From IMG/VR virus record IMGVR_UViG_3300025154_000153, positions 1 to 47,120 of that record: a DNA stretch of 47,120 nucleotides. One strand, given 5' to 3'. The notes beneath the pieces are model-generated. The model worked only from the letters and a program-made list of their open reading frames with translations. It did not search any database and was not told the DNA's origin. This DNA is from a virus. The number at the start of each line of letters is the position of its first letter. Position 1 is the first letter of the stretch. The translations under genes were made by a program, and so were the position numbers. Shown here piece after piece: positions 2,040 to 47,120 of the stretch.

Positions 2040-2068
2040 TTGCTATAACTTCCTGCCTGTGCTATACT
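2040..2068 (+). promoter_or_regulatory. Sigma-70 type promoter upstream of the DNA polymerase
   Basis: TTGCTA (2040-2045), a 17-bp spacer and TATACT (2063-2068), preceded by the A/T-rich box gcaaaaattttcttct. The spacer end ctgtgctatact is nearly the same as in the promoter at 42134. A leader of about 55 bases follows before the ATG at 2131. Confidence 0.75.
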
Positions 2069-2130
2069 GTAGACAATCATCAAATACCAGATATCCTTAT
2101 CACAGTGGCGTTTGCCGCTCCGGAGGAGCT

Positions 2131-5100
2131 ATGCTCACGAAGGTCATTTCAGGTGGACAGACAGGCGCAGACCAGGCGGGGCTTGTGGCTGCACGAGATG
2201 CAGGTATCGCGACAGGTGGCTGTGCGCCGAAAGGTTGGAAGACGCAGGACGGACCGGCTCCGTGGCTTGGCACAGACTTCGGCCTTGTTGAACACGCTTC
2301 TCCGCAGTACCCTCCTCGAACCGAGGTTAATGCAGGCACGAGTGATGGCACACTTTGGTTCGGTCGCACGACGTCCGCGGGTTTTCGTTGTACACAGAAA
2401 GCCTGCATCAAAAATGGCCGACCTTTCCGTATCTTCCAAAGTGTCGAAGACGCAGTCAAGTGGATCACAGATACCGGTATCTGTGTGTTGAACGTAGCCG
2501 GCAACCGGGAGAACACCAATCCGGGAATCTACGAAAGCACATATTGGAACCTGACCGAAATATTGTGCTACACTACGATAACTACTGTCAGTCGTGAAAC
2601 TACTCCAGAGGAGCCGGCAACAAGATATTGGCACCACCCTGAATCTTCCTGTATTTTCACGACAGAAAACGGTGAGCAGGCTGAAACAGACGGCCTTGTT
2701 GAGGAGATCGAAGAAGCTGTCTATCTGGAATTGCAGTCCTTGTATGCTGCTCCGGCTAGCCCGGTATCTGCCGCCCCTGAGACGTCTTTGAAAGGGACGG
2801 TGCCGATCGCCGACCGTAACTACTTCGACTTTGAAACCACTTTAACTGATGGCTTCCGACTCGAGACGATTCCGATCTGTAAAGGTCTTTACGCGGATCG
2901 CCATTCGAGCGTGCTCCTCCCTTCTGACTGTGTGTCTTGGCTTCGACGACTCCTCCGGAGCGGAGCTGACCAACCCCCTGCCGTTCGGCCGAAGGGTGTG
3001 GGTTTTGCTCTTGCTTTCGATATGCTGCAATTCTTCCGTTGCCCGTCCTTTTCGACGGCGGATGTTCTGGAAATCCTTCAGGCGTATGCTGATGGACGCT
3101 TGATCGACATTCGCTGTGCGGATAAGCTGACTTCGATTCAGGCCGGGGACTTCGAGCGTAGGGTATTCACCCTTGCCGAAGCATACAAGGCACGCACCGG
3201 TAAAGTGATCGCAGACCAGAAAGGGATGAATCATCCGATAATTGGAGCTTACAAGAAAGGCGTCAAGAAGGATCAAAAACTGGCGTGGCTTAAGGCATTC
3301 GGAGCTGCCCAACGTGCGTATATCTCTGGTGACCGGACAGCCGCAGATACCGCGCTTGCCGCCGCGTGTGCCATTGTGCCCTTGGCAGATGTACCTTGGC
3401 GATACAAGTATGCCTTCCTATACGGTCTTCCACTTGCGATGTGGCCGGCAGAAGCGAAGGCTTACGTTATCGCAGATTGCAAGGAAACGGCCGAGCTTGG
3501 GGCTGTGGTGTGTTCCGCTGCCCAGGAGGCACAAGTTCCGATTGACCTGGATGGGGTTCTCCAGAGCGGTTATCTCGGACCGGATGGATTGCCGCTGCAC
3601 ACCGCCTTCGAGTCCGCGATGGACTTCGGATTGCAGCTCATGTGTGAAGTCGGTTTCTTTATCCGTGATGAGTACGTCTCAGATATGGTTCAGTTCTATG
3701 AGGAAACCCGTGCGGAGACGCAGGATGCCCTTTTCATGAAGGGTCTCATTAAGGTCCGAAAGACGGGCGAACACAAAGGAACCCTTGGCATGGACGCCAA
3801 AGAGGTTCAAGAAATGGTTCGAGATGCTTTTGTTTCAGAAGGACTCGAGCCTCCGTTGTCAGAAGGGGGTGAGGCTCAAAAAGCGGCTTGGACAGCCGGT
3901 AATCGCGATCCGAAGAACGCTCCGGAGGAGTGGGCCACGAAGCGGGACAAGAATACACTTCTGGAGTGTCCTGGTCGGAAAGCCGAACTATACCGGGCAT
4001 GGCAAACGGCGCAGAGAATGTGTGAAGTCAAACTTCCACTTCTCCAGAGAAAGCCGTTGCGAACAGCCATCAACAGCATGGTCATTACGAGCCGCACCTC
4101 CTCTGGAGCGGATGAAGAAAATGGCGGAGCGGAATTCAACTCTCAGAACCTTGATAAGGAGGGGGGTGTCCAACAGGCTTTTAGACCGCCGACAATGGAA
4201 GAGATGAGGGTCATCCAGAAGCGTCTTCACCTGCCGAAGTTTGAATTGGAGCCTGGCGACAGGTACGTCATTCTCGACGCGGATTATGCTACCTTGGAGT
4301 GCCACACCGGTGCCACACAGTTCATCTATCGACGAACCGGCAGAATGGGCTACCAGCCGGGCGTGAGTGAGCTGGCTGATGACCTCATGTTGGAAACCGA
4401 TATCCACTCAAAAATAGCGGTATCTGATTGGATCATGCGCGGATACCGTGCGGCGGATGGTTACGACTTCTCCGGAGCGGACTTCGATGAAGCGTACAAA
4501 TATTTCCGAGTACGGCGAAAGAAGGATCCTGAATACGCCTTGGCAAGGCAGACGAAGAAGCCGGTTATCTTCGGTGCCTTGGGAATGATGGGCGCATACC
4601 GGCTTGCGATGCAGGCGTTTAGTTTGCACGGTATAAAACTTGCTGTACACGAGAACGGTATGTGGGATCCTGCTGGTTCTGTGGAGGTTGCGAAACGATC
4701 TCTAGCGATCTGTCTTGAGCTGTACCCGGATATTGCAGAGCACAGACAGCAGGGGTATGATGGTGGCACCGATCAGCTGGCTTACTGCATGCCGAGCATG
4801 CTTCAGAGAGGACGTTGCTTGCCCACAGAATGGGGCAATTGGGCGATTCAGCCGGAAGCGGCCAGAATCTTTAAAAGGGCGATATTTGGCGACTGGCGAA
4901 AGATCTATGATGTAAAGCGGTACCCGGCATTCGCAGGTTGCACCGTATTCATCGGTGTTCATGATAGCATCGGTATGTATGTGCCTGAATCGCAGGTACA
5001 CGAAGCTTCTCTGGAGCACCGTCGGACTATGCTTGATTCAAAAGAGGTGTCCTGTCCCGGAATGACCAAAGACAGCCAGGTCGTTCCTGTAGCAACTGAA

Positions 5101-5241
5101 GTGATGGAGAAGAGCGCCGAACCGACGTACCGAGACGGACGGCTCGTCGTAACACCTTGTTCGATACCGGTTGCTAAGCGGCCGGAATTCCTTTGGCACA
5201 ATCATCCACGCGGAGCCTACGGCTGGCTCCTGGAGGAGTGA
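2131..5241 (+). CDS. SLOG/YpsA-like domain fused to family A DNA polymerase with 3'-5' exonuclease
   Basis: This 1036-residue protein replicates the phage genome. Residues 1-150 (KVISGGQTGADQAG, then CVLNVAGNRE) match the SLOG-type 'putative molybdenum carrier'/YpsA Rossmann fold, thought to bind nucleotides. After a linker holding an iterated element (TTPEEP), a DnaQ-like 3'-5' exonuclease starts at about residue 230 (YFDFET, exo I) with a YVIAD exo III motif near 444. The polymerase palm and fingers follow: motif A ILDADYATLE (about 713), motif B RQTKKPVIFGALGM (about 805) and motif C VHDSIGM (about 943). Motif C has Ser where Glu is usual. The ATG at 2131 is set by ggaggag nine bases upstream. 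The N-terminal fusion is unusual. No frameshift or stop separates the two parts. Confidence 0.93.
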   Translation: MLTKVISGGQTGADQAGLVAARDAGIATGGCAPKGWKTQDGPAPWLGTDFGLVEHASPQYPPRTEVNAGTSDGTLWFGRTTSAGFRCTQKACIKNGRPFRIFQSVEDAVKWITDTGICVLNVAGNRENTNPGIYESTYWNLTEILCYTTITTVSRETTPEEPATRYWHHPESSCIFTTENGEQAETDGLVEEIEEAVYLELQSLYAAPASPVSAAPETSLKGTVPIADRNYFDFETTLTDGFRLETIPICKGLYADRHSSVLLPSDCVSWLRRLLRSGADQPPAVRPKGVGFALAFDMLQFFRCPSFSTADVLEILQAYADGRLIDIRCADKLTSIQAGDFERRVFTLAEAYKARTGKVIADQKGMNHPIIGAYKKGVKKDQKLAWLKAFGAAQRAYISGDRTAADTALAAACAIVPLADVPWRYKYAFLYGLPLAMWPAEAKAYVIADCKETAELGAVVCSAAQEAQVPIDLDGVLQSGYLGPDGLPLHTAFESAMDFGLQLMCEVGFFIRDEYVSDMVQFYEETRAETQDALFMKGLIKVRKTGEHKGTLGMDAKEVQEMVRDAFVSEGLEPPLSEGGEAQKAAWTAGNRDPKNAPEEWATKRDKNTLLECPGRKAELYRAWQTAQRMCEVKLPLLQRKPLRTAINSMVITSRTSSGADEENGGAEFNSQNLDKEGGVQQAFRPPTMEEMRVIQKRLHLPKFELEPGDRYVILDADYATLECHTGATQFIYRRTGRMGYQPGVSELADDLMLETDIHSKIAVSDWIMRGYRAADGYDFSGADFDEAYKYFRVRRKKDPEYALARQTKKPVIFGALGMMGAYRLAMQAFSLHGIKLAVHENGMWDPAGSVEVAKRSLAICLELYPDIAEHRQQGYDGGTDQLAYCMPSMLQRGRCLPTEWGNWAIQPEAARIFKRAIFGDWRKIYDVKRYPAFAGCTVFIGVHDSIGMYVPESQVHEASLEHRRTMLDSKEVSCPGMTKDSQVVPVATEVMEKSAEPTYRDGRLVVTPCSIPVAKRPEFLWHNHPRGAYGWLLEE
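2466..2485. repeat. 20-bp perfect palindrome built from two CAGATACCG half-sites
   Basis: CACAGATACC is directly followed by its complement GGTATCTGTG inside the SLOG part of the polymerase gene. It is the most complete symmetrical form of the iterated 9-mer. It suggests that the frequent single CAGATACCG is a half-site. Confidence 0.9.
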
Positions 5242-5242
5242 A

Positions 5243-5401
5243 ATGAAAGCCCGAAAACAACCGCCTTGTAAAGGGTCTAATAAGCCCGGAATACAGGTTC
5301 GGGACAAAGTTAAGTGTTCAGTGTGTGGTTTTCCATTTCCAACTTTCAGCTTTGCGGAATACGGAAATATTCCAAAACATCACAAAGGACGTCCGACATA
5401 G
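5243..5401 (+). CDS. Small zinc-finger-like protein, 52 aa
   Basis: The protein is basic and short, with Cys residues in PPCK and CSVC and a later HH pair, consistent with a one-zinc knuckle. The ATG follows tggaggagtgaa, one base after the polymerase stop, so it is translationally coupled to it. Small zinc-ribbon proteins next to replication genes are common in phages and may bind nucleic acid, but no specific role can be assigned. Confidence 0.6.
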   Translation: MKARKQPPCKGSNKPGIQVRDKVKCSVCGFPFPTFSFAEYGNIPKHHKGRPT

Positions 5402-5425
5402 CACCGGCTTCTCTGGAGGAGTGAA

Positions 5426-5767
5426 ATGAGTTGGTATTATCACCTCGTAAGTGACTCAAATGGTGACTGGCACGAACTCCTGGAAGTGAGCACTCGACAG
5501 GAGTTTCTGGAGTATACAGGCACAGGCGTCATTACCGGTATCTGCTGGCACTACCGTCTTCCTGACCCTTTCGGCGATGCTTTTACTGTGCCGATGCTCA
5601 CCTGCTACCGGTATTTGAAGTTGTGGAGGGGTGGTGAGCTATTCGGCTACGCTGCGGAGGAGCTCAAACCGACCGATGTGCCTCTGTTCTTTCGGCGTAA
5701 GCATGACGCTATGATCCGACACGCAGCAACGGAAACCTTGAAATATCTACGTTCTCTGGAGGAGTGA
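5426..5767 (+). CDS. Hypothetical protein, 113 aa
   Basis: No family is recognised. The start is firm: ctctggaggagtgaa lies directly upstream. The protein is rich in aromatic residues (SWYYHLV, ICWHYRLP, CYRYLKLWRGG) and looks like a compact alpha/beta domain with a helical C-terminus (AMIRHAATETLKYLRSLEE). Its last residues (SLEE) are encoded by the CTCTGGAG element that forms the ribosome-binding site of the next gene. Confidence 0.65.
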   Translation: MSWYYHLVSDSNGDWHELLEVSTRQEFLEYTGTGVITGICWHYRLPDPFGDAFTVPMLTCYRYLKLWRGGELFGYAAEELKPTDVPLFFRRKHDAMIRHAATETLKYLRSLEE

Positions 5768-5768
5768 G

Positions 5769-6110
5769 ATGAAATTCGAAGTACGACCAGATCTAATAAA
5801 AAAGGGTGTGTGGAAAATCGCATGGCTGCCGGCTACCTTTTTCGACGAATCGGAGCAACGAATCAATACGTCAATTCGACATAGTGATATACACATCACA
5901 TATCCAACAAATCTGCATTTTGCGGTGTGTGATGACGTCGTATTGTGTGAACGAGAACCTACTCAAGGGGAAAAGTCTCTGATACTTAATTCCTTTTTGA
6001 AAGACTTGTGTCCCTTCTGTGGGAAGCCCAATGATCCGACGGCGTATGTTACAGCCGGAAACGGACATCGCGCTCACTATACTTGCTTTTACCCGCTTTT
6101 GGAGGAGTGA
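5769..6110 (+). CDS. Hypothetical protein with C-terminal zinc-binding motif, 113 aa
   Basis: The N-terminal part is strand-rich and unrecognised. The C-terminal 35 residues contain LCPFCGKPND, then HRAHYTC, a CxxC plus His/Cys arrangement typical of a zinc ribbon. The start follows ctctggaggagtgag, one base after the previous stop. The C-terminus ends PLLEE from a relaxed copy of the same element (ttggaggag), which serves the next gene. A nucleic-acid or protein adaptor role is plausible but unproven. Confidence 0.65.
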   Translation: MKFEVRPDLIKKGVWKIAWLPATFFDESEQRINTSIRHSDIHITYPTNLHFAVCDDVVLCEREPTQGEKSLILNSFLKDLCPFCGKPNDPTAYVTAGNGHRAHYTCFYPLLEE

Positions 6111-6111
6111 A

Positions 6112-6333
6112 ATGAAAATCGACGAAGACATAAGACCTATTGTTGTGTCAGTAATAGAAGCTAAAGAGTATTGGAGTATGGTAGGGAAGAAGGCCGGTGA
6201 ATTCGAATTTACAATAGGAAGACGAATTCGAATTCACCGGGAATCGGAGACACACGTGTTCATAGACAAGCACCTTACCATGGTTGAAGAACAGGCTTTG
6301 GTTCGCTGGTGTCGCTCCGGAGGAGTGAAATGA
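6112..6333 (+). CDS. Hypothetical protein, 73 aa, containing a 16-bp inverted repeat
   Basis: The ATG follows ttggaggagtgaa one base after the previous stop. The product is acidic at first (MKIDEDIRPIVVS) and then basic (GRRIRIHRE). Its middle codons are written by a perfect 16-bp inverted repeat at 6194-6240. No family is recognised. The stop overlaps the next start (ATGA). Confidence 0.6.
   Translation: MKIDEDIRPIVVSVIEAKEYWSMVGKKAGEFEFTIGRRIRIHRESETHVFIDKHLTMVEEQALVRWCRSGGVK
6194..6240 (+). repeat. 16-bp perfect inverted repeat inside a coding sequence
   Basis: CCGGTGAATTCGAATT (6194-6209) and its exact complement AATTCGAATTCACCGG (6225-6240) are separated by 15 bases. The mRNA would fold into a long hairpin inside the 73-aa gene. 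There is no following U-run, so it is not an intrinsic terminator. Confidence 0.9.
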
Positions 6334-6713
6334 TACGCCTTGCGCACTACCGAATGGCTGCTAAGTACCCTCGGCCGCACATTCCGATATCCAACGGCGT
6401 ACCAGACGACATTCTGGTAACTGAGCGATATCGAGAATTTGACCCTTCTTGGAACAATGTTTCTGACTACAGAGCCGGTATACTGACTTGGGACCGTTTT
6501 GTCGATCTGTATTGGCGACAACTTGAGACTCTTTGGAGTACACGAAGGGAGCTTTTCGGATATTTGGAGCTTCGCGGAGGTACATGTTTCTGTTATTGTA
6601 CTCCCGGTGATCGGTGTCATCGACGTATACTCGCTTGCTTCTGTTTGAAAGTTGGGTTTGAGGTTGAGTTGGATGGCAAACGACTGCCATCCAATTGGGA
6701 GGAGATCTGGTGA
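6330..6713 (+). CDS. DUF488-like protein, 127 aa
   Basis: The C-terminal half contains GGTCFCYCTPGDRCHRRILA, matching the signature of the DUF488 family (Cys, then a C-x-x-x-x-x-CHR stretch at the start of a helix). DUF488 proteins are of uncertain function and occur in phages and bacteria. The Cys and His residues could bind metal or act catalytically. The start lies after ggaggagtga of a CTCCGGAG element and overlaps the previous stop. The next gene (nuclease) starts with GTG overlapping this stop, so it belongs to the polymerase transcription unit. An N-terminal start at 6309 lacks a comparable Shine-Dalgarno. Confidence 0.7.
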   Translation: MIRLAHYRMAAKYPRPHIPISNGVPDDILVTERYREFDPSWNNVSDYRAGILTWDRFVDLYWRQLETLWSTRRELFGYLELRGGTCFCYCTPGDRCHRRILACFCLKVGFEVELDGKRLPSNWEEIW

Positions 6714-7552
6714 ATACAGATACCGTTTCTAGTGACGCTCCGGAGGAGCAGCCTGTCTCTGACTGCTTCGGCGACTTCCGATGCCATGTATCGGTATCAC
6801 CGATGCAGTGGTTTAAGAAGTGCCCCTTTCGCTGGTACGCACACAAGGTACAGCACCAACTGGACCCAGGTAAGCCGACCAGAGGGCTCCAGATCGGGAA
6901 GGCTTGTCATGCCGAGGTCGAGGGCGCCGTAAATGGTAAGGTAGCTCCAGAGGAGTTGTCTGCATTGGCTCGGCTAAGTTATGACCTCATACCATCGGTA
7001 TCTGACTGGGTCCCTGAATTCGTTCTGGACCATGTGGATCTTGGCTTGGTCTGGCCTTTCTACGGAAAGATCGATCTCCTCAGATACCGCGGTGGCCAAC
7101 TGGCCTTTATCGATTCGAAGTTCGCAAGCGAAGGTAAACCACCTTTCCCCGGGGGGTATCGTCTTCTCCCGAAGACAAAGGAGGCGATTCAGAACGACTT
7201 TCAGTTGTGCCTGTATGCCGCAGCACTTCAGAGAATTTTTGGTGATTTACCTGCTACCCAAGGGCAAAACCAGGTGAATTACAACACCGGGGAGCGATGC
7301 GTTGTAGAGGCTCCTTGTTCCCAAGAGGCGGTATCTGCCGCCGTTGAAGAGGCTAAAAATTTGTGTGAATCTATGGATCGCATGTCTCGGGCACCTGCCT
7401 GGGACGTACCGACAGAGGGTTTGCCCGGTCAAGGGCCACACTGTAACGCGTATGGACGGCCTTGTGAAACACTTCGTTACTGCCGTGAGATCGAACAGTC
7501 GCAATTGGGCGGCCGCTCAAGGACACGGCCGAAAACAGGATGGGAGATCTGA
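6710..7552 (+). CDS. RecB/Cas4-like PD-(D/E)XK nuclease, probably Fe-S
   Basis: The 280-residue protein shows the PDDEXK_1 pattern: a Cys in FKKCPFRWY (about residue 38), GKACHAEVE (about 63-71, the conserved His), GKIDLL (Asp near 121), AFIDSKFA (D-x-K near 136) and QLCLYAAAL (QxxxY near 165). Three Cys near the C-terminus (HCNAYGRPCETLRYC) with the early Cys could hold a 4Fe-4S cluster, as in Cas4 and AddB. The likely role is single-strand or exonucleolytic DNA processing in replication or recombination. The start is GTG at 6710, with gggaggag upstream and GTGA overlap with the preceding stop. CTCCGGAG and CTCCAGAG elements add APEEQ and APEEL. Confidence 0.85.
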   Translation: MNTDTVSSDAPEEQPVSDCFGDFRCHVSVSPMQWFKKCPFRWYAHKVQHQLDPGKPTRGLQIGKACHAEVEGAVNGKVAPEELSALARLSYDLIPSVSDWVPEFVLDHVDLGLVWPFYGKIDLLRYRGGQLAFIDSKFASEGKPPFPGGYRLLPKTKEAIQNDFQLCLYAAALQRIFGDLPATQGQNQVNYNTGERCVVEAPCSQEAVSAAVEEAKNLCESMDRMSRAPAWDVPTEGLPGQGPHCNAYGRPCETLRYCREIEQSQLGGRSRTRPKTGWEI

Positions 7553-8130
7553 TGAAACGAAGACACGGAAATATGCACAAGTCACTGACAAATGAGCAAG
7601 CCGTTTCGCTGATTGCTCTGGAGAAGTTTCTCCGGGAGAACGCAGCGCCTGTGACGATCCTCGATTCGGCGCCCCAGCTCATACGACAGCGAGCAATCAA
7701 CGTGCGCTTTCGGAAGCTATATCAGAAAGACTATCTTGAATTGGACATCTCCCAGTTCACCTGCCCTTCTCCGGAGAAGCAATCAAAAGTGGAAGACAAA
7801 CAGTACCCTTGTGTGACGGTGACACAAGGCATGTCGGGTTACTTCGCTGTTCTACTGACCTGGAACAAGGAGTTCGGAGGCTTTGCTGAGCCCTTTGAGA
7901 CGGGCATTGGACGGTATGCCATACAGGCTGATGCAATCAAAGAGGCACAGGGCTGGGCTCACTCCAAAGGTATACCCTTCTACTCGCCGACGCTTAGTGC
8001 TTCTCCTGCCCGTCAAGATGTTGAGCAACAGTTGCGAGAAGTGCTCCCGGATCTCGTTGTTCACTGTATTGAGTGTGGTGGTGTCAACGAGCACCGCTTC
8101 GGCTGTCCGGTTTCCTGCTGCGACGGTTGA
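7552..8130 (+). CDS. Hypothetical protein with C-terminal Cys cluster, 192 aa
   Basis: No family is recognised. The start ATG at 7552 overlaps the nuclease stop (TGATG) with gggaga upstream. An in-frame ATG at 7540 is possible. The N-terminal region is helical, and the middle (YPCVTVTQGMSGYFAVLLTWN) looks like a sheet domain with an 'FETGIGRYAIQADAIKEAQGWA' like segment resembling small phage proteins that read out a value per residue. The end, HCIECGGVNEHRFGCPVSCC, has enough Cys/His for a zinc site. It is the last gene of the unit begun at 2040. Confidence 0.65.
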   Translation: MKRRHGNMHKSLTNEQAVSLIALEKFLRENAAPVTILDSAPQLIRQRAINVRFRKLYQKDYLELDISQFTCPSPEKQSKVEDKQYPCVTVTQGMSGYFAVLLTWNKEFGGFAEPFETGIGRYAIQADAIKEAQGWAHSKGIPFYSPTLSASPARQDVEQQLREVLPDLVVHCIECGGVNEHRFGCPVSCCDG

Positions 8131-8193
8131 GTCGGGTATCCGAACGAAGCGAAAAATTTTTCTTCTCCGTTCAAGCGCCCTTCTCGATTCTAC

Positions 8194-8222
8194 TTGCCTT
8201 AAGTCCCCCTTTGTGGTATGCT
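8194..8222 (+). promoter_or_regulatory. Sigma-70 type promoter for the 8.3-9.8 kb genes
   Basis: TTGCCT (8194-8199), 17-bp spacer, TATGCT (8217-8222). The A/T-rich box gcgaaaaatttttcttct lies about 30 bases further upstream. A leader of over 100 bases follows, with a strong hairpin (8289-8307). Confidence 0.65.
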
Positions 8223-8288
8223 GTGTTCATCATTTGAATTGCCCACTCCCGTCTGGCGACGGTAGCTCCCCACAAGGGCGGTTCCGAA

Positions 8289-8307
8289 GGGGTGTCCGTA
8301 ACACCCC
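8289..8307 (+). promoter_or_regulatory. Leader hairpin between promoter and first gene
   Basis: GGGGTGT (8289-8295) pairs with ACACCCC (8301-8307) around a five-base loop and is followed by ccacttttctttc. This may be an attenuator or an mRNA-stabilising hairpin. The downstream T-run is interrupted, so efficient termination is uncertain. Confidence 0.45.
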
Positions 8308-8344
8308 CACTTTTCTTTCGATGACCTGTATCTCCGGAGGACCG

Positions 8345-8629
8345 ATGATTCAGATACCGAGTCTATACGATGTTCAAGGCATTGACAGCCTTCGTATTTT
8401 GATCGAAGCGGTTGAGGAAAGTCCCCTTGACTGTCCTCCGGAGGAGCGGTTCGGCCTGTTGTTTGCCTTGCAGGAATACTGGGAAGGAGCTACACTTCCC
8501 TGTGTTATCTATGGTGTGGGAGGCGTTCACAGGTACTTCCTGTGGAAAGGTGAAGTCTGGTATAGTGCCTCTCACGGACAAAGACAAGTGTTTCGTGCAC
8601 GAGATGTCGGTTTTTCCGTCTTTGATTAA
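8345..8629 (+). CDS. Hypothetical protein, 94 aa
   Basis: The ATG follows ctccggaggaccg and the second iterated word immediately inside the gene (cagataccg, reading QIP). Residues 18-40 hold another element (CPPEERFG). The C-terminal half looks strand-rich (PCVIYGVGGVHRYFLWKGEVWYSAS). No family is recognised. It is the first gene after the promoter at 8194 and lies ten bases before the kinase gene. Confidence 0.6.
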   Translation: MIQIPSLYDVQGIDSLRILIEAVEESPLDCPPEERFGLLFALQEYWEGATLPCVIYGVGGVHRYFLWKGEVWYSASHGQRQVFRARDVGFSVFD

Positions 8630-8638
8630 AGGAGCAAC

Positions 8639-9104
8639 ATGAACGTCGTAGTTATGGTGGGTTTGCCCGGGAGCGGAAAGAGTACCTACACACAGGACAA
8701 CATGATCCCGGGAGATGTCCTCGTCTCCCCCGGACCTATTGCGAGGCGTAAAGGAAGCTACTCCGGAGAACCTTAACCACGCCTGGCGCCTGGCGTGGGA
8801 AATCTTTGGCCGGTTACTCACACACCCGGTATCAGGTACGTTGTACTTCGACGCCTGTCAACTTAACCGGAACTATCGAACAGCGATTCTCGGCCTTTGT
8901 AGAGGACTACAGATACCGTGCTACGCGGTATTCATGGATACGCCGCTTGAGCTGTGCAAGTTACGCAATGCAATGCGCGACGGTGCAGCTCGCGTGCCGG
9001 ACCAAAAGATAGACTATCTCGCTGGGCTGTTGACACCTCCTACTGTGGAGGAGGGTTTCACCAGTGTCTTCACCCACACCCTAAGTGCTCTGGAGAAGCA
9101 ATGA
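8639..9104 (+). CDS. P-loop nucleotide/polynucleotide kinase, split by a +1 frameshift
   Basis: The ATG at 8639, after aaaggagcaac, begins VVVMVGLPGSGKSTYT, a Walker A of the AAA_33/T4 polynucleotide kinase type. As written, this frame stops at 8774-8776 after 45 codons. Dropping one C from the five-C run at 8727-8731 joins it to a frame that stays open to 9104 and carries the rest of such a kinase (SPDLLRG, then GLQIPCYAVFMDTPLELCKLRNAMRD). The corrected product is about 154 residues. The break may be a sequencing error, a real inactivating mutation or a +1 ribosomal slip. Such kinases phosphorylate nucleic-acid 5' ends or nucleotides. The end overlaps the next ATG. Confidence 0.75.
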
Positions 9105-14836: not shown

Positions 14837-14890
14837 TGTGGGGATGCGGGTCCTGGTCACCCCGTCCGGTGCTCCTGCGGAGGAGCGGAT

Positions 14891-15000
14891 GCCGGGTGCC
14901 GGGTGCCGGGTGCCGGGTGCCGGGTGCCGGGTGCCGGGTGCCGGGTGCCGGGTGCCGGGTGCCGGGTGCCGGGTGCCGGGTGCCGGGTGCCGGGTGCCGG
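14891..15000 (+). repeat. Heptanucleotide array GCCGGGT, about 16 copies
   Basis: About 110 bases of uninterrupted 7-bp units, G/C-rich, sitting directly after a relaxed hairpin element (gctcctgcggaggagc). Because seven is not a multiple of three, copy changes would shift any frame, which supports the tract being non-coding. Confidence 0.95.
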
Positions 15001-15927: not shown

Positions 15928-16046
15928 TCTTTTGCCTCGTCGGAATACGACGAGTAAACTAGCTCGATACCGGTGGTCAAGCCCGGCGCTCTGACAAAAT
16001 GTCAGGGATAGCGAGACAGAACCGTAACTCCAGAGGAGTGTTAGAA

Positions 16047-17591
16047 ATGAAAGTAACCAAGCCAGGCAAGTTAGCAACGAATCAGAACACGATCACTACC
16101 CCGGCCACTACCCCGGCCACTACCCCGGCCACTACCCCGGCCACTACCCCGGCCACTACCCCGGCCACTACCCCGGCGGCATCCCCGGCCAGCAAGCCGG
16201 CCCCCAGCAAGCCGGCCCCCAGCAAGCCGGCCCCCAGCAAGCCGGCCCCCAGCAAGCCGGCCCCCAGCAAGCCGGCTCCCAGCAAGCCGGCCCCCAGCAA
16301 GCCGGCTCCCAGCAAGCCCGCCGTCCAGAAATTTACGAACGACGACATCGCACGGCTCAACGCAGCGATGGATGCCGCTATGGGAGCTGCGTTTGTTGTT
16401 CAGGCATTGGACACAGCGTTGATCGAGGCAATCAAGGAAGCGCAGTCAACCGGTCTGGCCCATGTGCCGACCTATGAGCAGGTGCCCGTCTCGACGCTCG
16501 TGCCGTTCGATCCGGCTGTCCATGGACCGTTGCTCGGTGAGGATGACTGGAGTTTTCTCTCCGACGACGCGCGAATCGCGGCAGGTAGCCTCACGTCGCT
16601 CGAGGAGCTCAAGGCGTCGATCAAGGGCGCGGGTGGTATCATCTCGACGCTTGCTCCGAGCGTGCTTCGTATTCCGGCCGGATCGGAGGACGGTGCATAC
16701 TGGGATGTGCTCATCAATGGGCACCGTCGAACGCAGGGATTGACCGAATTGATCGCGGAAAACGCGCCGGTCGATCCGAACGTGTGGGTTGACGTGTACT
16801 CTCCGGAGGAGCGCATCGCGATACAGGCACTGAAAGCTGCGGCGAACGTTGCTCCGAAAGCAGCGGAGGCAACGGAAAAGTTCGGTCTCCTCGTCGGATT
16901 CAAGGTCGCTGGCTGGACCGATGTGCAGTGTGCAGAGCGGCTCGGGTATGCGCTCAATTCCGAGGGGAAGCCGAGCGGGGCATACTTCAATCTGTTGCGC
17001 ATCAGCAAGGCAGATTCGGAGATCCAGCGGGCATTCCTGGAGAGCCGCATCAGCCTGAAAGCGGCGAACGACTACGCGACGATCGGCATCCAGATCGGTG
17101 GCGAACCGGGACGGGTGGCAAGTCTCGAGGCAATGGCTGCCGGCACCCGCCGGCTCGAGGCACTGGCAAAGGGGCGCGCGGCGAAAGGTACCGGCACGGG
17201 CGAAACCGGCACGGGCACGGGCGAAGGGACCGGGACGGGCGAAGGGACCGGGACGGGCGAAGGGACGGGTGACCGGGAAGCGCGCGAGGCAGACGGGCTT
17301 TTCCATCCGGCCTTCAGGGGCGGAAAATCCGTTCAGAACGTGTACAAGAATGTGCCGGAATCGTCGGCTGTCAGGTTTCCGCTCAGCCTGCTCGGTGGTA
17401 TGTCGAAGATCGGCCCGGCCGAATTGGCCGGACGCATCCAGACGGCGCTCAAGACAGCTCCTTCCTACGGTGCGATGCTGGCAGTGGTCGCATGGTCGTT
17501 CGGGTTCAAGGCACCGGACGGGATGACTGGATTCGGGATGCCGGAGCTTGACGATCTTCTCGTTTTGTTGGACAAGGCCGCCGCGAAGTAA
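16047..17591 (+). CDS. ParB-like DNA-binding protein with repetitive N-terminal tail
   Basis: This 514-residue protein begins at the ATG at 16047, after actccagaggagtgttagaa. Residues 15-92 are low complexity: about six TTPA repeats, then eight PAPSK repeats, written by 12-bp and 15-bp tandem repeats. The ParB/KorB-type core follows: VPVSTLVPF (about 150), LKASIKGAGGII (about 192), the NGHRR box (about 224), then a predicted helix-turn-helix (WTDVQCAERLGY...YFNLLRIS, about 291-325). A Gly/Thr repeat (GTGTGEG) lies near 388-410. ParB proteins bind parS sites and spread along DNA. The palindromes at 17802-18247 just downstream are plausible targets. No ParA is encoded nearby. Confidence 0.85.
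   Translation: MKVTKPGKLATNQNTITTPATTPATTPATTPATTPATTPATTPAASPASKPAPSKPAPSKPAPSKPAPSKPAPSKPAPSKPAPSKPAPSKPAVQKFTNDDIARLNAAMDAAMGAAFVVQALDTALIEAIKEAQSTGLAHVPTYEQVPVSTLVPFDPAVHGPLLGEDDWSFLSDDARIAAGSLTSLEELKASIKGAGGIISTLAPSVLRIPAGSEDGAYWDVLINGHRRTQGLTELIAENAPVDPNVWVDVYSPEERIAIQALKAAANVAPKAAEATEKFGLLVGFKVAGWTDVQCAERLGYALNSEGKPSGAYFNLLRISKADSEIQRAFLESRISLKAANDYATIGIQIGGEPGRVASLEAMAAGTRRLEALAKGRAAKGTGTGETGTGTGEGTGTGEGTGTGEGTGDREAREADGLFHPAFRGGKSVQNVYKNVPESSAVRFPLSLLGGMSKIGPAELAGRIQTALKTAPSYGAMLAVVAWSFGFKAPDGMTGFGMPELDDLLVLLDKAAAK
16095..16316 (+). repeat. Two coding tandem repeat arrays (12 bp and 15 bp)
   Basis: About six copies of a 12-bp unit (accccggccact, TTPA) run from 16095 to about 16175, then about eight copies of a 15-bp unit (cccagcaagccggcc, PAPSK) to about 16316. 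A few units carry a T/C change (ggctccc), so the array is not perfectly homogenised. Confidence 0.95.
17206..17272 (+). repeat. 18-bp coding tandem repeat (Gly-Thr-Gly-Glu)
   Basis: Three near-identical units (gggaccgggacgggcgaa) encode GTGTGE near the C-terminus of the ParB-like protein, preceded by degenerate copies. Probably a flexible linker. Confidence 0.85.
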
Positions 17592-42133: not shown

Positions 42134-42162
42134 TTGCCTTAACTCCCCTCCTGTGCTATACT
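42134..42162 (+). promoter_or_regulatory. Sigma-70 type promoter of the helicase genes
   Basis: TTGCCT (42134-42139), 17-bp spacer, TATACT (42157-42162), preceded by cgaaaagattttc. The block ctcctgtgctatact resembles that of the promoter at 2040. Confidence 0.75.
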
Positions 42163-46267: not shown

Positions 46268-47120
46268 ATGCCAGTTCAACCTCCGAAGAAGTCCGCCGCT
46301 CAGCAGGCTGCGGACTATGAGAACCTTGTGCAGTTTGTGGGCCACCAGGCCCGCAGTTACAACAACCCGTCCGTGAAAGAGCCGGGTGAGTATACGAATT
46401 CCGCCCGGCTCGGGTGGGCCGAGTCCTCCGACGGAACGAAGTATCCCTGTGGGTATATCTTGAATGCCGGGGCATTCAAGATCGCCCAGGATGGGGCTGA
46501 CATATACTACATCATCGAAGGAACCGTTTTGGCGTGCGGCTCCGGAGCAGTCGGGTCGCTCCGAATCAAGAAAGGGGAGTACCGGCCTGTAGATCTTACT
46601 CCAAACATGGGCGGATCGATCATGCAGCTCTACCGTCGACAAGCAACGGAGGGGCTTTGCAAGAAGTTCTTCCGGGCATTCAGCGGAATGAGCGAGGTCG
46701 AATACGACAACCAGGGGCAGGACTATGCCGATCAGCTCTGGGATAATCTCTGGAAACACCAATCGCTGGTCGGAATGACGTTCAAGGTAGATGTAATCCC
46801 GAAAGAGCGTTCTGAGGATGAGTACGGTCGGGACAGTACGACCTTCCCGAATGCCAGTATCTACCCGCTCTGGGATCCATGGGAAGATTTGTCCGTACTA
46901 CCTGAGCAAAAAGGTTGGGAAGGAATCGAGCTGATCGGTGCGCCGGACTACGAGGTTCTCCAGAGCAGCAATCCGATTCCGCTGATGACAGTCACGAAGG
47001 CCGCTCCTCCGCCGGTGTCCAGGCCGACGGTTCCGGCTGCGAAGGCCGCTCCTCCACCGGTGTCCAGGCCGACGGTTCCGGCTGCGAAGGCCGCTCCTCC
47101 ACCGGTGTCCAGGCCGACGG
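46268..47120 (+). CDS. Hypothetical protein with C-terminal 15-residue repeats, runs off the right edge
   Basis: The ATG at 46268 has gaaaggaagcgaa upstream. The first 240 residues are folded: a helical start (AAQQAADYENLVQFVGHQARSY), strands (CGYILNAGAFKIAQDGADIYYIIEG; GSLRIKKGEYRPVDL), a helix (EGLCKKFFRAFSGMS) and GMTFKVDVIPKERSEDEYG, which resembles phage ssDNA-binding proteins of the DUF669 type by general pattern only. From 46997 the 15-residue repeat (AKAAPPPVSRPTVPA) begins and continues at position 1 of the window, ending at 159. A Pro-rich tail on an ssDNA-binding-like domain would fit a replication organiser, but the function is unproven. Confidence 0.7.
   Translation, partial: MPVQPPKKSAAQQAADYENLVQFVGHQARSYNNPSVKEPGEYTNSARLGWAESSDGTKYPCGYILNAGAFKIAQDGADIYYIIEGTVLACGSGAVGSLRIKKGEYRPVDLTPNMGGSIMQLYRRQATEGLCKKFFRAFSGMSEVEYDNQGQDYADQLWDNLWKHQSLVGMTFKVDVIPKERSEDEYGRDSTTFPNASIYPLWDPWEDLSVLPEQKGWEGIELIGAPDYEVLQSSNPIPLMTVTKAAPPPVSRPTVPAAKAAPPPVSRPTVPAAKAAPPPVSRPT
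46997..47120 (+). repeat. 45-bp tandem repeat, right window edge
   Basis: About 2.75 copies of the same unit as at 1-144; the second and third copies have A instead of G in cctccRccgg. The edge cuts the unit after acgg. Confidence 0.95.

Follow-up and report, generated by a model that had tools for sequence, protein, structure and literature searches.

The genome of an unclassified bacterial virus carries a real, intact and, within the searches made, apparently unreported fusion of a SLOG domain to a family A DNA polymerase (PolA). The presumed ligands of SLOG domains of this kind are small signal molecules that resemble nucleotides. We analyzed a window of 47,120 bases, which is the whole of IMG/VR virus record IMGVR_UViG_3300025154_000153. 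Judged from the sequence, the fusion gene has a single frame, an intact SLOG pocket and intact exonuclease and polymerase motifs, and it lacks a good internal start. We propose, at about even confidence, that the phage makes a single polypeptide in which a flexible linker connects a whole cpYpsA SLOG domain to the family A polymerase, with the ligand activity of SLOG tied to replication. The features are listed in Table 1.

Table 1. Features of the fusion gene and its upstream region (window coordinates)
Feature	Coordinates	Strand	Description
Promoter-like site	2040..2068	+	TTGCTA-17-TATACT, TG ahead of second hexamer
CTCCGGAGGAG	2118..2128	+	Shine-Dalgarno of the fusion gene (ATG 2131); belongs to the sites iterated across the genome
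Fusion gene	2131..5241	+	1036 aa: SLOG, linker, 3'-5' exonuclease, family A polymerase
cpYpsA SLOG domain	2131..2580	+	Residues 1-150; PF12694, 3imk, AF2, homologue alignment
SLOG pocket residues			S7GGQTG12xD14, G29G30, P33, G41, Y60, R63T64, N67, D72, T74, G84, T88, L120N121xA123G124xR126
Linker	2581..2805	+	Residues 151-225, ~75 residues; low predicted confidence (AF2)
CTCCAGAGGAG near domain border	2603..2613	+	Resembles the gene-end/Shine-Dalgarno repeat of the phage
GTG, best candidate internal start of a separate polymerase	2800..2802	+	Weak AAGG four bases upstream
3'-5' exonuclease region	2806..3540	+	Exo I D233/E235, Exo II D297, Exo III Y445/D449; sequence inspection
Family A polymerase region	3568..5238	+	Thumb, palm, fingers
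Motif A DADYATLE	4276..4299	+	D718, E723
Motif B RQTKKPVIFG	4546..4575	+	R806, K810
Motif C GVHDS	4954..4968	+	H944, D945

A sequence-only reading of the window had described a SLOG domain and a family A polymerase with 3'-5' exonuclease in one continuous frame. Indeed, the frame opens with ATG 2131 and is free of stop codons until its end at 5241. GGAGGAG directly precedes the ATG and makes a strong ribosome site. The last 13 bases of the promoter-like site (2056-2068) are identical to 42150-42162, upstream of the helicase operon; the promoter-like sequence is common to 2040-2068 and 42134-42162, and a CTCCRGAGGAG site follows each. GTG 2059 was rejected as a start, since it is a mechanical extension only and would begin inside the -10 region of the promoter-like site.

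The possibility that two proteins are made from separate starts was considered with the same frame. A start-codon scan revealed no in-frame ATG between the SLOG domain and Exo II. Past the SLOG core and ahead of the exonuclease, the in-frame starts are TTG 2563, 2731, 2740 and 2788 and GTG 2800, and among these candidates only GTG 2800 has even an AAGG nearby. This codon (residue 224) lies just ahead of the exonuclease domain, at the expected N-terminus of a stand-alone polymerase (MPIADRNYFDFET...), and might yield a free polymerase in addition to the fusion. However, its ribosome site is weak compared to the GGAGG-type signals of most genes in the window and an in-frame ATG is absent before Exo II, so that we regard two products as rather unlikely. 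With no ATG before Exo II and only an AAGG at GTG 2800, a single fused product, as predicted from the gene, is the simplest reading.

The N-terminal SLOG/YpsA-like assignment for residues 1-150 was confirmed by profile and fold. PF12694 (cpYpsA) matched residues 5-144 over model positions 1-144 of 145 (E 1.7e-29, 102.8 bits against a cut-off of 26.2). The AF2 model of the domain reached a pLDDT of ~97, and the nearest solved structure, PDB 3imk, was recovered both by sequence (E 1.9e-12) and with the model in Foldseek (E 1.5e-13, TM 0.81 of target, rmsd 1.9 over 153 columns). A degenerate N-terminal pocket, which would have spoken against a working domain, was not found. All positions that are at least 85% conserved in an alignment of 167 SLOG homologues are kept in the fusion, including G12 and D14 of the GxD, each of which is present in 167/167 homologues. 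At positions of 75-85% conservation the only departures are E39 to Q and V68 to A. Q39 is the main one; an acidic residue stands there in 83% of the homologues and Q in five others. This GxD is probably the equivalent of the GxD/E signature of Bacillus subtilis YpsA. The function of YpsA requires that signature (PMC6459960). By sequence, the SLOG pocket is intact rather than degenerate, and residues 1-150 are a full member of the cpYpsA / putative molybdenum carrier family by profile, fold and pocket. Molybdenum cofactor carriage was dropped as a function, because it rests on the family name only.

A different role for the domain is conceivable by analogy with DprA/Smf, ssDNA-binding SLOG proteins that are present in jumbo phages (PMC7272460, PMC7824862): the SLOG domain might serve as a DNA-binding clamp that holds the polymerase template. 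However, the fused domain belongs to cpYpsA and not to DprA according to Pfam, it keeps the small-ligand pocket signature, and no DNA binding was seen with SLOG-carrying ThsA (PMC7272460). We consider such a clamp very unlikely.

The C-terminal part is more divergent. PF00476 matched the fusion weakly (E 0.03, 13.7 bits, below the cut-off of 34.3), and the match of the polymerase part to PHROG 17 was likewise weak (E 1.6e-4). With hhalign against a phage PolA profile that was built without the fusion protein, 237 columns aligned (E 9.4e-6, probability 82.7), and motifs A, B and C of the two sides matched up. In an alignment with seven phage PolA proteins, for which segments were anchored at the first motif because MAFFT on longer pieces misplaced motif A, R655, the motif A Asp, E723, K810, Q907, H944 and D945 were invariant. 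The alignment pairs D716 as the motif A Asp, but D718 fits the usual D-x4-E spacing. The exonuclease motifs look complete by sequence. Based on the co-linear catalytic motifs and the hhalign result, we assign the C-terminal part to the family A DNA polymerases as a divergent member. Like phage family A polymerases (PHROG 17, PF00476), it combines an exonuclease with a polymerase and carries motifs A, B and C in order. The VHDS of motif C had been taken as unusual, but HDS is also found in at least five other phage PolA proteins (L185, L192, L198, L095, L087) and is ordinary.

Structure prediction, while clear for the SLOG domain, did not resolve the polymerase part in the full-length AF2 model; therefore, no domain interface can be judged. 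A separate palm model was of low confidence (pTM 0.44) and placed motif C at a beta turn. All 50 of the 50 Foldseek matches listed for it were family A polymerases, with E values of at least 0.009; since the input alignment consisted of PolA, these matches are weak support. The polymerase part is only ~20% identical to the phage family A polymerases compared, and no close relative was found in phage records or IMG/VR: neither the whole protein nor the polymerase part had relatives in IMG/VR, and tblastn with the polymerase part gave no match up to E 1 in 50,697 phage records. The polymerase of Rhodobacter phage RcExplorer, which was considered via a shared VapE-like protein, showed no similarity. 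No match for a second polymerase was obtained among the window proteins scanned, and we infer that the fused enzyme is the replicative polymerase of the phage.

A direct repeat, 98% identical, was found at the two window ends (14-139 and 46995-47120). Therefore, the genome is, judged from its sequence, probably complete and either circular or terminally redundant. Contigs of the same virus out of other samples stop at the same place. The window encodes a baseplate protein (PHROG 6) and a terminase, for which the phage collection gave one weak match, together with a VapE-like primase-helicase, a ResIII-type helicase, a Cas4-like PD-(D/E)XK nuclease and a DNA methyltransferase. From this gene content the virus is probably a contractile-tailed phage. 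It had no close relatives in the phage collection.

Two further IMG/VR contigs come from the same virus in other samples, and the polymerase gene is absent from both, so that 2131-5241 is covered by the window contig alone. The junction thus rests on one assembly, and two genes might look fused because the contig is a chimera or a stop codon was overlooked. Against such an artefact, one of the two contigs agrees with the window at 100% identity over the 15,186 bases compared, the linker keeps one frame, the gene has a promoter-like site and is followed by genes that run in the same direction, and the window ends are nearly identical, which points to a complete genome. We judge an assembly or sequencing error to be hardly credible here.

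The genome is further marked by iterated sequences. The palindrome CTCCGGAG occurs window-wide (for example at 206, 559, 2118, 16801 and 45033) in 62 exact copies compared to ~0.9 expected, and in 122 copies when CTCYGGAG/CTCCRGAG variants are included. Their spacing is more even than chance (CV 0.54, reached by 0/20,000 random placements), and many of the copies are Shine-Dalgarno sites at gene ends. A second word, CGGTATCTG, is present in 57 copies on both strands, with 0.44 expected (for example 2468-2483, 12777 and 45411), and two of its copies make CAGATACCGGTATCTG at 2468-2483, within the SLOG domain. A ParB-like protein is encoded at 15999-17591, recognized by eye from a LINGHRRTQG box; it has long TTPA and PSKPA repeats, had no Pfam or PHROG match and is a possible binder of the iterated palindromes. 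At ~14880-14970 lies a tandem GGTGCCGGGT-type repeat, one frame of which encodes CRVPGAG repeats.

The direct fusion of a SLOG domain to a replicase had been called unfamiliar. A search for the same two-domain architecture supports this for the polymerase: in searches that kept best matches only, no other SLOG-PolA fusion was found among the best 80 viral and 80 cellular SLOG loci, and a polymerase search in 50 SLOG-carrying viral records found none. The best tblastn matches of the whole protein in phage and plasmid records covered the SLOG part only, and in 148 genomes of the Geomonas phylum only SLOG matches were obtained, in frames of at most 365 aa, none extending into the polymerase part. 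The cpYpsA members found were mostly stand-alone or had short extensions, and some reside in very large phage proteins (L022, L039, L047, L070, L080, L089, L092). In a giant frame of L022 and L047 (~4500-8684) the SLOG domain follows directly after a NADAR-like domain, as seen by eye, in agreement with published NADAR-SLOG phage proteins.

SLOG fusions to other nucleic-acid enzymes have, however, been published, and in this respect the idea is not new. Sporadic phage cases, including one to a 3'-5' exonuclease, appear in PMC9503650 (Figure 5i), where sensing of NAD/ADP-ribose signals is proposed. The suggestion of the sequence-only reading, a SLOG domain that senses or uses up a nucleotide signal and thereby tunes its partner enzyme, is thus already in print for phage SLOG fusions. 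A SLOG-polymerase fusion is not named in the covered text of that paper or in the related SLOG literature covered. Like the fusions in PMC9503650, ours joins SLOG and an effector domain in one predicted polypeptide; unlike them, it has an entire polymerase, exonuclease included, as the effector part. Hence, the published list of phage SLOG fusions is extended by a polymerase. In Thoeris ThsA (SIR2-SLOG), sensing of a nucleotide ligand is the presumed task of the SLOG part (PMC7272460). ThsA likewise holds its SLOG domain within a two-domain protein, but it belongs to another SLOG clade, and our protein has neither a SIR2 nor a TIR partner (Pfam, PADLOC) and no PADLOC match.

Three unrelated phage groups carry SLOG and PolA as separate genes close to one another. 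A UDG-PolA gene starts within the end of the SLOG gene in L084 (910-4716) and L087 (5471-9274), so that its ATG and the SLOG stop codon overlap (ATGCTGA). The near-duplicates L077/L078/L082/L086 have exonuclease/UDG genes on one side of the SLOG gene and the polymerase gene on the other. The SLOG gene of L053 comes after a UDG gene, and polA stands one gene further on. The UDG part of the UDG-PolA genes of L084 and L087 seems by eye to carry an intein (TPNHPVL...NGFIVHNC). In Pseudomonas phage SYP (L204:2743-4522) the SLOG gene overlaps a DNA ligase gene by 8 bases. Other phage SLOG neighbors are mostly unrelated or belong to nucleotide metabolism; DnaJ and thymidylate synthase are among them. 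By a rough count, SLOG-PolA adjacency occurs in 3 of ~72 loci, which corresponds to P ~0.05 to 0.2 under guessed expectations; therefore, we claim no enrichment. The link of SLOG to replication genes is not general and, being only slightly above a rough expectation, not clearly above chance. Since SLOG genes reach replication operons in other phages, an origin by fusion of neighboring SLOG and polA genes is nevertheless plausible.

Such an origin could also be the whole story. A stop might have been lost between neighboring early genes, with the SLOG domain still working as it would on its own, perhaps by removing a nucleotide signal of the host, uncoupled from the polymerase. The adjacent but separate genes in other phages, the diversity of phage SLOG neighbors and the flexibility of the linker (low AF2 confidence) all fit this explanation. 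So does the gene-end-like CTCCAGAGGAG near the domain border, which may be chance because such sites recur every 386 bp. On the other hand, pocket and polymerase are both intact in one chain and the gene is apparently undisturbed, and the linker is long and in frame, unlike a fresh read-through of a few codons. We regard a passive fusion as a real possibility, while leaning against it.

In the coupled reading, which we prefer, the SLOG domain would bind or hydrolyze a small molecule derived from a nucleotide; the likeliest candidates are molecules of the NAD/ADP-ribose type and related modified nucleotides. The fusion would couple this activity to DNA replication. The domain might act near the polymerase to neutralize a nucleotide linked to immunity or damage, or polymerase/exonuclease activity might be adjusted upon appearance of the ligand. 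The low-confidence linker in the model suggests co-localization rather than tight allostery. As the fusion was seen once, conservation cannot argue for its function. A more specific proposal is a built-in replicase sensor, in which SLOG detects a host immune or stress nucleotide of the ADP-ribose type and switches between synthesis and exonuclease/idling, or removes the nucleotide at the fork; we consider this quite unlikely. If true, this would be, as far as searched, the first case of direct control of a DNA polymerase by SLOG.

Should coupling exist, phage DNA replication and the nucleotide-based immunity of the host would be connected. The cpYpsA proteins are widespread in bacteria and phages and are still called 'putative molybdenum carriers', and for none of them was a ligand or activity found in the literature covered. 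A natural fusion to an easily assayed enzyme offers a direct route to the cpYpsA ligand.
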